Below, piece by piece: positions 53,115 to 55,212 of a DNA stretch of 64,000 nt; position 1 is the first letter of the stretch, and each line of letters begins with the position of its first letter. The stretch is from positions 372,001 through 436,000 of the forward strand of contig JAHCIQ010000003.1 in assembly GCA_026129135.1 (NCBI GenBank). Direction: 5' to 3'. A model generated the notes under the pieces. That model was not told the origin of the DNA. It saw only the letters and a list, made by a program, of their open reading frames with translations, and did not search any database. A program made the position numbers and the translations under genes. The DNA comes from Cyanobacteria bacterium TGS_CYA1 (GTDB lineage Bacteria > Cyanobacteriota > Vampirovibrionia > Obscuribacterales > Obscuribacteraceae).

Positions 53115-53225
53115 TAGATTTAATAATTAAATCGCCAGGAAAATTGAACTTTTTCATCGCACATATCGTTTTAACTAGTAGTAGAACCTTTTGCGCCGCA
53201 TCCTTATAATCCTGCGAGGTTGACC

Positions 53226-54440
53226 ATGTCTAAGTTGAAATTTCCGGCTCTGCTTGCCTTAGCCGCATTTGGTCTAACAAGCGCGGGCGATGCAAACGCC
53301 CAGAGCGTGACCCGGATCAGTCAGCCAGTCATGAATCAGCAAGGGTTCAATCAAGTAGGCGAGCGCCCTCAGATGCAGGGACGCCAGGGGCGGCGCGGTA
53401 AGCAAAAGAAGATGATGCTGATGCCCGGTGATGTCGCAAAAGAAAATATTCAAAAGGTTACATCTGAAATTCGCTGGAATACCAACCTCAATAGTGCTCT
53501 TGCACAAGCTGCAAGACAGCATAAAATGGTTCTATGGGTCCATCTGGTGGGCAATCTCAGCGGCGCTACCTGAAGTGCCGCAAATAGCTTGAGAGCCGTG
53601 TCGCTCTCGCAAGAACCAGCTTTCTCCGTATTAAAAGACTATTTAGTCTGCGGCTACAAAGATATTTCAAATGATGCCTCCGCGGGATTTTCTGGAAGGC
53701 ATGAGGTTGGAGGAAATGCCATTAATACATCTAATGGCGCAGGTCCCACTAATTTGCAGACTTTCCTGCTTGCCTCCGACGGCACAGTGTTGAGCTGTTT
53801 GCCTGGATTCTGGAATTCAGTCGATTTGGTCAGAGAGATAGAATTTGCCAATCGATTGAATAAAGTCTGGAACGATCCTAAAATGACCCATACTCAAAAG
53901 AACAATGCGTTTAGTCAAATGCATTTGGCTCATATCGGCGAGCATTCAATGCAAATGGTGGCACGCAGTCGTATGCAGTCTTTTGACATGCAGCACGAAG
54001 CAAAAAATAATCTCTACACCTCAGATACAATTTTAGATCGCGCAAGCGCAGCATCAATTCTTTCAGACGAGCGCATGATGAAAAGGTCTGCTATGCAAGC
54101 TTTCAAAACAACGGATAGAATTATGCACGAGCGTATGGCACAAAGACCTTTTGTCGCCTACACCGCATTCGATACCGCAAAATTTGCCAAATATGGACGT
54201 CCTCTCTACGATAAAAATGAGGATTTCAGAACAGCTGATGGCAAATTTATCGATAACGGAAGAATTGTTGATAAGCCACCAGAAGCGGTTAAAGACAAGG
54301 AGCTAATAGGTAAAGTTCCTGATCAGGTAATGCAACGTCGCGAACGTCGCCAGAGAAAAAATGCTCAGGAAGCCTACAACAATAGACTCTGGGGACAGTA
54401 TGAGCAGAACCGAAACGAGGTCAAGAAGTGGGGGCAGTAA
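53226..54440 (+). CDS. Secreted thioredoxin-like protein with in-frame UGA (candidate selenoprotein)
   Basis: ATG 53226 has GAGGT 5-10 bases upstream. The reading frame runs 115 codons to a TGA at 53571-53573 and continues, in the same frame, for 288 more codons to a stop at 54440, so 404 residues if UGA is read through. A signal peptide ends at A-N-A (residue 25). Before the UGA come W-N-T-N-L-N-S-A-L-A-Q-A and V-L-W-V-H-L-V-G, the helix and strand of a thioredoxin fold; the UGA sits just after G-A-T, where the first active-site Cys would be. Sec or nonsense are both possible. The C-terminal 200 residues are helical and basic. TGA is a normal stop in neighbouring genes. Conventional annotation would give two pieces, 53226-53573 and from TTG 53589. 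Confidence 0.72.
53591..53613 (+). promoter_or_regulatory. Candidate bacterial SECIS hairpin
   Basis: GAGAGC (53591-53596) and GCTCTC (53603-53608) form a perfect 6-bp stem with loop CGTGTC; CTT (53588-53590) can extend it with AAG (53611-53613) across a 2-base bulge. The loop begins 23 bases after the UGA and has G at its second position. Both fit the general bacterial SECIS description as I recall it. A hairpin this size can occur by chance. Confidence 0.42.
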
Positions 54441-54458: not shown

Positions 54459-55106
54459 TTATTGAAGAGTAATTAGGTCTATGTCCAAAACCTTGTCGGA
54501 TAAACTGTCCGCGTCAAGTTCGCGAAGTTCGTTATACCAGGTTGGAATGAATAACTTGGTATCTGCAAGGTCTACAAACATCGGTGCAATAGTCACCTTC
54601 TTGAAGAGTCGGCGCAGACGAATGTATTCACGCCGCAGCCCGTCAATTTCGTCTTTCATCATATGACGCTCCGACTGAGAATGAACGAAGTCTTCGGCAC
54701 GATCGCGCGGCCAGCCCTGCTCTATCAATGCGCTTATTAAATCGTCTTGCTTCTTAAGAACTTTTGTCATCCCGCAATCATTGTGTCCAATCAAAGCAAA
54801 GTGGCGAACACCTGCGGAGAGTATATAAGCAAGACTGAATTCCGAGCCTACAAGCCTTCCGCTGGCTCGTCGAATTACATAAGCAAACATGCGTGGAATC
54901 GGCAAGGCGTAGCGGAACTCGATACACGCTGCAATTAAAAGTTCGGGTTTTGTGCCTTCTTCGATTTTTTGACCAAAATTTTCAGAACAAATGAGTTTTT
55001 CTATTGGACTATTGCGCCACTCTGGGGGAATGTCGAAAACAGAGCTTATCTCTTGCAGACGACCTCTGTAACGCTCATCGTCGCTGATGCTGGTAGGTAA
55101 TGACAT
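54459..55106 (-). CDS. Beta-carbonic-anhydrase-like protein
   Basis: 215 residues from ATG 55106, chosen because GGAG lies 6 bases upstream. Zinc-ligand motifs: C-I-E-F-R at 61-65 and H-N-D-C-G at 108-112, matching Cys, His and Cys ligands of beta carbonic anhydrases. The usual C-x-D-x-R is C-x-E-x-R here, which changes the residue that gates the zinc. R-x-x-G-x-x-x-x-S-E-F-S-L lies between. Activity is plausible but not certain. Convergent with the candidate selenoprotein gene. Confidence 0.84.
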   Translation of the reverse strand: MSLPTSISDDERYRGRLQEISSVFDIPPEWRNSPIEKLICSENFGQKIEEGTKPELLIAACIEFRYALPIPRMFAYVIRRASGRLVGSEFSLAYILSAGVRHFALIGHNDCGMTKVLKKQDDLISALIEQGWPRDRAEDFVHSQSERHMMKDEIDGLRREYIRLRRLFKKVTIAPMFVDLADTKLFIPTWYNELRELDADSLSDKVLDIDLITLQ

Positions 55107-55212
55107 ACTTTCTCCCGAATGGATGCAGATGTTTATCATACCATCGCTAATAATTGATTCGTTCAGCTCGCGTTCATGTGATTCACCTATGCTCGCTTAA
55201 AAAGGAGCAGTT

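Follow-up and report, generated by a model that had tools for sequence, protein, structure and literature searches.

The question raised by this locus is whether a TGA triplet that interrupts an otherwise continuous reading frame ends translation or encodes selenocysteine (Sec). The window, i.e., the whole 64,000-nucleotide stretch of DNA that was analyzed, corresponds to G000:C10:372001-436000 of a 4.26-Mb assembly of 16 contigs that is 91% complete. Reading of the frame bore out the claim that it is broken only once, in the same register on both sides: ATG 53226 to TAA 54438-54440 is a single frame interrupted only by TGA 53571-53573, which corresponds to residue 116 of 404. The original prediction took this TGA to be a Sec codon in a new family of secreted selenoproteins using an unaltered genetic code.

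The in-frame UGA and its homologues

TGA is an ordinary stop in this DNA, as had been asserted for the neighboring genes: it terminates 14 of the 49 long open reading frames of the window, after which the next in-frame stop follows 0 to 44 codons on, versus 288 open codons after TGA 53571-53573. The expected good ribosome binding site is recognizable as a GAGG ahead of the start codon (Table 1). That the product is secreted could be upheld only in part, in that the N terminus is hydrophobic and signal peptide-like; this call was made by eye without a predictor, and export itself, which is inferred from such N termini alone, is probable. On the opposite strand, the gene is adjoined at 54459-55139 by a gene for a divergent carbonic-anhydrase-like protein (weak PF00484 match, E 0.033, below the cutoff). 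We found no conserved gene neighbor pointing to a substrate; of the 68 regions compared, 12 at most shared any one neighboring gene.

Table 1. Positions of the gene and its predicted features within the window
Feature	Position	Strand	Basis or remark
Predicted type-A selenoprotein gene	53226..54440	+	404 residues, counting UGA as Sec; read-through homologues in 41/53 genomes of the order
Putative Sec-encoding UGA (U116)	53571..53573	+	Immediately N-terminal to the first helix that follows the central strand; UGA in 69/70 homologues, Cys in 1; UGA in 5 Planctomycetota homologues
RBS-like GAGG	53216..53219	+	6 bases ahead of ATG; sequence
Signal-peptide-like N terminus (MSKLKFPALLALAAFGLTSAGDANAQ)	53226..53303	+	By eye; similar hydrophobic N termini in most homologues
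Predicted thioredoxin-fold domain, residues ~64-215	53415..53870	+	AlphaFold2 pLDDT >90 over most of the domain; Foldseek DsbH/AGR/thioredoxin folds
Predicted helical C-terminal domain	53871..54437	+	Conserved TTDxIMHERMAxRPF; invariant D297, H301, R303
Cys142	53649..53651	+	Kept in 63/75 type-A sequences; possible resolving thiol
Cys191	53796..53798	+	Kept in 70/75 type-A sequences; possible resolving thiol
Bacterial SECIS-type hairpin GAGAGC-CGUGUC-GCUCUC	53591..53608	+	Loop 53597-53602; homologue alignment, codon constraint, covariation, covariance model, bSECIS geometry

Homologues of this gene (here type A) were found in 41 of the 53 genomes of the order Obscuribacterales, often in multiple copies, and in none of the 236 genomes of the same class outside the order; most of the assemblies with the family are MAGs. 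Searches of plasmids, phages, and viral contigs recovered no relative. The window's own genome has a second type-A paralogue (G000:C15:249185-250141) with its UGA and hairpin intact. About 75 type-A sequences were compared, nearly all of which keep the UGA and the RNA signal, and the 70 homologues read through the aligned codon, a check that the original prediction had proposed, have UGA in 69 cases and Cys in one, never TAA or TAG. The in-frame codon is thus either kept as Sec or replaced by Cys, as is required of a bacterial selenoprotein. The motif around it in type A is G-x-T-U-S-A-[AG]-N-S-L-R-A-V-S-L-S.

An overlapping second set of loci came from scanning genome contigs: a first scan with a single protein as the query found nothing, and an alignment query then gave 67 loci, 66 with UGA and one with Cys. 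This set includes five Planctomycetota homologues, all of which retain both the UGA and the hairpin and two of which come from contigs 132 and 162 kb long. The lone Cys homologue (G033:C80, L077) has the codon TGT and a hairpin whose altered loop no longer fits the consensus. Because it nests within the Sec genes in the tree, on a long branch with support of 98/95, its Cys looks like a secondary Sec-to-Cys change, as far as can be judged from the tree. A further type-A gene, L176 (G023:C376), is decayed, with the hairpin and UGA partly kept and the surrounding frame lost, and is either a pseudogene or an assembly error.

The hairpin downstream of the UGA

The hairpin had been described as having six base pairs and a loop CGTGTC, and its geometry was confirmed in every detail: it begins on the 18th base after the UGA (17 bases between), the loop follows after 23 bases, and G is at loop position 2. 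The published model for bacterial SECIS (bSECIS) elements calls for a loop of 3 to 9 nt, a G in the first two loop positions, and a distance of 16 to 37 nt from the UGA (PMC13188914). Loop size, loop G, and spacing are satisfied in 69 of 69 UGA homologues, so that the proposed fit to this model extends to the whole set. The 45-nt stretch from the window folds at -10.5 kcal/mol, versus a published limit of -7.5 kcal/mol (PMC13188914); folded as a single sequence, it is not unusually stable relative to dinucleotide shuffles (z -0.34).

Comparison across genes was more telling. Over the 60 bases 3' of the UGA, 69 genes give a gapless alignment, in which the stem GAGAGC/GCUCUC and the loop CGUGUC are almost invariant. 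The codons that make up the hairpin are nearly fixed (Val GTG in 68/68, Ala GCC in 66/66, and Arg AGR in 68/69), and many codons are used for the same amino acids (Arg, Ala, Val, Ser, and Leu) elsewhere in the same genes, a pattern that, at the level of sequence comparison, clearly points to synonymous constraint on the hairpin. RNAalifold recovered a consensus of only four pairs and no double changes on A2, as the type-A hairpin hardly varies and the variants that do occur retain a stem through a change of register. Examples are GAGGGC-CGUGA-GCC-U-CUC, AAGGGA-CGUG-UCCCUU, GGGA-CGUG-UCCC, and, in a planctomycete, GAGGG-GAGUUA-CCCUU. In the covariation test, 91.4% of the cells were paired, and the score of 0.254 versus 0.180 for shuffled data was reached in 0 of 500 shuffles.

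Clear covariation came from a second, divergent family, family B, which was found from profile matches (E ~1e-7 to 1e-11) and has the motif FC-U-TNARLARTVLFS. A profile comparison (E 2.1e-12) aligns its UGA with U116, and its hairpin, GAGAAC-CGUG[UC]U-GUUCUC, lies at the same distance from the UGA as in type A, with the stem GAGAAC/GUUCUC representing a compensatory change of pair 25-34 from GC in type A to AU. On the basis of these comparisons, family B is predicted to be a distant Sec-containing sister family of type A. One copy, of motif C-U-TNARLARTVLFS, is present in the window's own genome (L173:1668-2636; G000:C1:250830); this third selenoprotein candidate of the genome reads FCUTNARLARSVLFS, and its hairpin is slightly mismatched. 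A covariance-model scan of that genome returned three matches at E <1: the window gene, the type-A paralogue (C15:249398), and the family B gene (C1:250830). The scan is partly circular, as the model was trained on the homologues, and weak matches may be missed. The nearly fixed hairpin could serve directly as a search model for selenoproteins of these genomes.

Selenocysteine machinery and competing readings of the UGA

Decoding of UGA as Sec calls for selA, selB, selC, and selD, whose absence would have counted against the prediction. The genome search that it suggested found all four: tRNA-Sec (75.5 bits versus a cutoff of 47, with ARAGORN in agreement), SelA (E 4e-135), SelB (a 677-aa open reading frame at 251.6 bits versus a curated cutoff of 242), and SelD (E 7.7e-106). 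The genome thus also meets this part of the definition of a bacterial selenoprotein. Across genomes at least 85% complete, selA is present in 28 of 28 that have the family, and 6 of 9 that do not have it lack selA (Fisher p 3.6e-5); every family-positive genome without a detected selA is less than 85% complete. Five genomes of the order (G014, G021, G050, G051, and G052) possess selA but no detected type-A gene, and hence other selenoproteins should be expected there.

If the UGA were a real stop, whether from a recent mutation of a Cys or Trp codon to TGA or from a sequencing error, the gene would simply be broken. The ordinary use of UGA as a stop in neighboring genes and the decayed look of the G023 homologue are compatible with such damage, but it does not explain why homologues in about 40 genomes, and in Planctomycetota as well, share the UGA at this codon, why about 280 residues downstream of it are conserved, why TAA and TAG never take its place, or why the hairpin is kept at the nucleotide level. 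Conservation across two phyla rules out the mutation and the sequencing error at 53571-53573 that the prediction itself had named as alternatives, and we regard a broken gene as practically untenable. Another possibility is programmed read-through or recoding in which a residue other than Sec (e.g., a near-cognate Trp or Cys) is inserted and two forms of the protein are made. Sec insertion generally competes with termination, and a 115-residue product of termination at the UGA is possible; the complete Sec machinery, the correlation of the family with selA, the match of the hairpin to the bSECIS model throughout, and the use of Cys as the substitute in the UGA-free homologue and in cyanobacterial relatives nevertheless leave insertion of a non-Sec residue very improbable.

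Because the UGA is conserved, the hairpin constrained, the Sec machinery complete, the codon replaced by Cys in a homologue, and the sister family alike, we are highly confident in predicting that the window gene encodes an exported selenoprotein with Sec at UGA 53571-53573, in the absence of any experiment showing selenium in the protein. None of the three tests that could have refuted the original prediction (missing sel genes, homologues with neither Cys nor UGA, and a sequencing error) did so when run. Its reading was essentially right; the evidence that takes it beyond chance is comparative, namely, UGA in 69/70 homologues and bSECIS geometry in 69/69.

Predicted fold, chemistry, and relation to known families

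An AlphaFold2 model built from 52 homologues (pLDDT 87) consists of a thioredoxin-like domain followed by a helical domain that reaches the end of the protein. The C-terminal extension proposed earlier accordingly corresponds to a conserved helical domain. The model also agrees with placement of the UGA at the thioredoxin active site, as U116 directly precedes helix 117-126, after the central strand, and hence may occupy the place of the nucleophilic Cys of thioredoxins. With its β-α-β core and its active residue before a helix, the domain qualifies for the thioredoxin fold superfamily. In Foldseek searches, the top-ranked matches of the type-A model were mostly thioredoxin folds (DsbH-type, AGR2/3, and thioredoxin domains) with probabilities of 0.9 to 1; the E values against the PDB were weak, with no match at E ≤0.001, and a sequence search of the PDB retrieved no relative. 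The model of family B agrees with a thioredoxin-type fold.

In the mechanism that we propose, SelB and tRNA-Sec would decode the UGA as Sec, directed by the in-frame hairpin 17 bases downstream, and Sec116 would take the nucleophilic Cys position, with the second CxxC position being Gly or Ala (64 and 11 of the 75 type-A sequences, respectively). Given the lack of a CxxC partner at Sec116, the protein would probably act as a single-selenol enzyme, probably reducing a disulfide, sulfenic acid, or peroxide outside the cytoplasm. Candidates for resolving the selenenyl intermediate are Cys142 or Cys191 in type A, the Cys next to Sec in the CU motif in type B, and an external thiol. Cys142 and Cys191 are each absent from some type-A sequences, and one planctomycete member lacks both; family B has no equivalent of either and instead has a Cys adjacent to Sec. 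The simplest reading, which is an inference, is that the resolving thiol was swapped during evolution.

From the fold and the Sec position, we infer that the protein is likely a redox enzyme, most likely an exported Sec-dependent thiol/selenol oxidoreductase, while the evidence for disulfide-type rather than peroxidase-type chemistry is evenly balanced. A selenoprotein with peroxidase-like activity, in which Gln178, Asn176, and Trp196 assist Sec as in glutathione peroxidases, would be in keeping with the invariance of these three residues in type A and with a single Sec without a CxxC partner. However, the glutathione peroxidase and peroxiredoxin families gave no sequence match, and Gln178 and Trp196 are not kept in type B; the parallel is weak, and we retain it only as a rather doubtful rival to the oxidoreductase.

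The window protein falls outside all Pfam and NCBIfam models, and no entry could be matched to it in the table of 119 prokaryotic selenoprotein families of a 2026 review (PMC13188914), although a listing in the groundwater-MAG survey cited there is not excluded. Among the papers searched, none connects selenoproteins with Obscuribacterales; one reports a single annotated Sec protein, PWT95605.1, from a Candidatus Melainabacteria proteome (PMC9529120). The proteins thus look like a previously uncatalogued selenoprotein family, as the prediction had supposed, and one that occurs in nonphotosynthetic cyanobacterial relatives and some planctomycetes. This would add a large multicopy family in a phylum hardly mentioned by selenoprotein surveys. 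Without Sec-aware gene calling, each of its genes would be split in annotation into two truncated pieces.

Among selenoprotein models, those of the VPGUxxT families (NCBIfam NF041382 and NF041383), thioredoxin-like (seleno)proteins of unknown function, come nearest. Their profiles give weak matches, at E 7.9e-4 for L183 of family B and at a best E of 0.025 for type A, in which 5 of 52 members match, but L183 scores only 18.8 and 17 bits versus curated cutoffs of 350 and 275, the window protein has no match, and the VPGU motif is absent from type A (TUSA[GA]NS), with type B having CUTNA; membership is thus not met. Thioredox_DsbH (PF03190, DUF255), with chlamydial DsbH, resembles the family in fold (matches to 7tkv and 2ju5) and in weak Pfam matches to 6 of 52 type-A and 11 of 18 type-B members. 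The DsbH profile reaches a probability of 86% with family B and a nonsignificant 8% with type A. The window protein has no PF03190 match, and other members attain E 5e-4 at best, falling short of membership. In the same genomes, DsbH-type domains have the motif C-H-W-C, whereas type A has Sec at the apparent first Cys position and Gly/Ala at the second. The UxxC thioredoxin selenoproteins share the thioredoxin fold and a Sec near the nucleophile position; unlike them, type A has neither CxxC nor UxxC (T-U-S-A-[GA]) and carries an added C-terminal helical domain. Other Obscuribacterales genomes encode small secreted-looking thioredoxins with an in-frame UGA and WUGPC or TULQC (L218, L219, and L220), which are probably ordinary UxxC selenoproteins.

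Oxygenic cyanobacteria provide a further parallel. In the phylum sample, the type-A profile gave scores in 11 genomes, and the four of those loci that were read (L214-L217) encode secreted-looking proteins of ~430 residues that are full-length homologues of family B (hhalign E 2e-44 over 342 columns) and more distant relatives of type A. They differ in having Cys at the Sec column, within the motif DLSCANSRFFRVALY, and belong to no Pfam family above the cutoff. Judged by alignment, they and family B form a classic Sec/Cys pair. The wider proposal, for and against which we see about equal grounds, is that types A and B and these Cys proteins constitute one ancient exported redox superfamily of Cyanobacteriota and Planctomycetota, in which nonphotosynthetic Obscuribacterales use Sec as a rule and oxygenic cyanobacteria use Cys, and whose chemistry, either single-selenol (TU) or vicinal Cys-Sec (CU), is unseen in other thioredoxin-like families. 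The Sec forms of Obscuribacterales and the Cys forms of oxygenic cyanobacteria are naturally suited to asking why a lineage would retain or abandon selenium.
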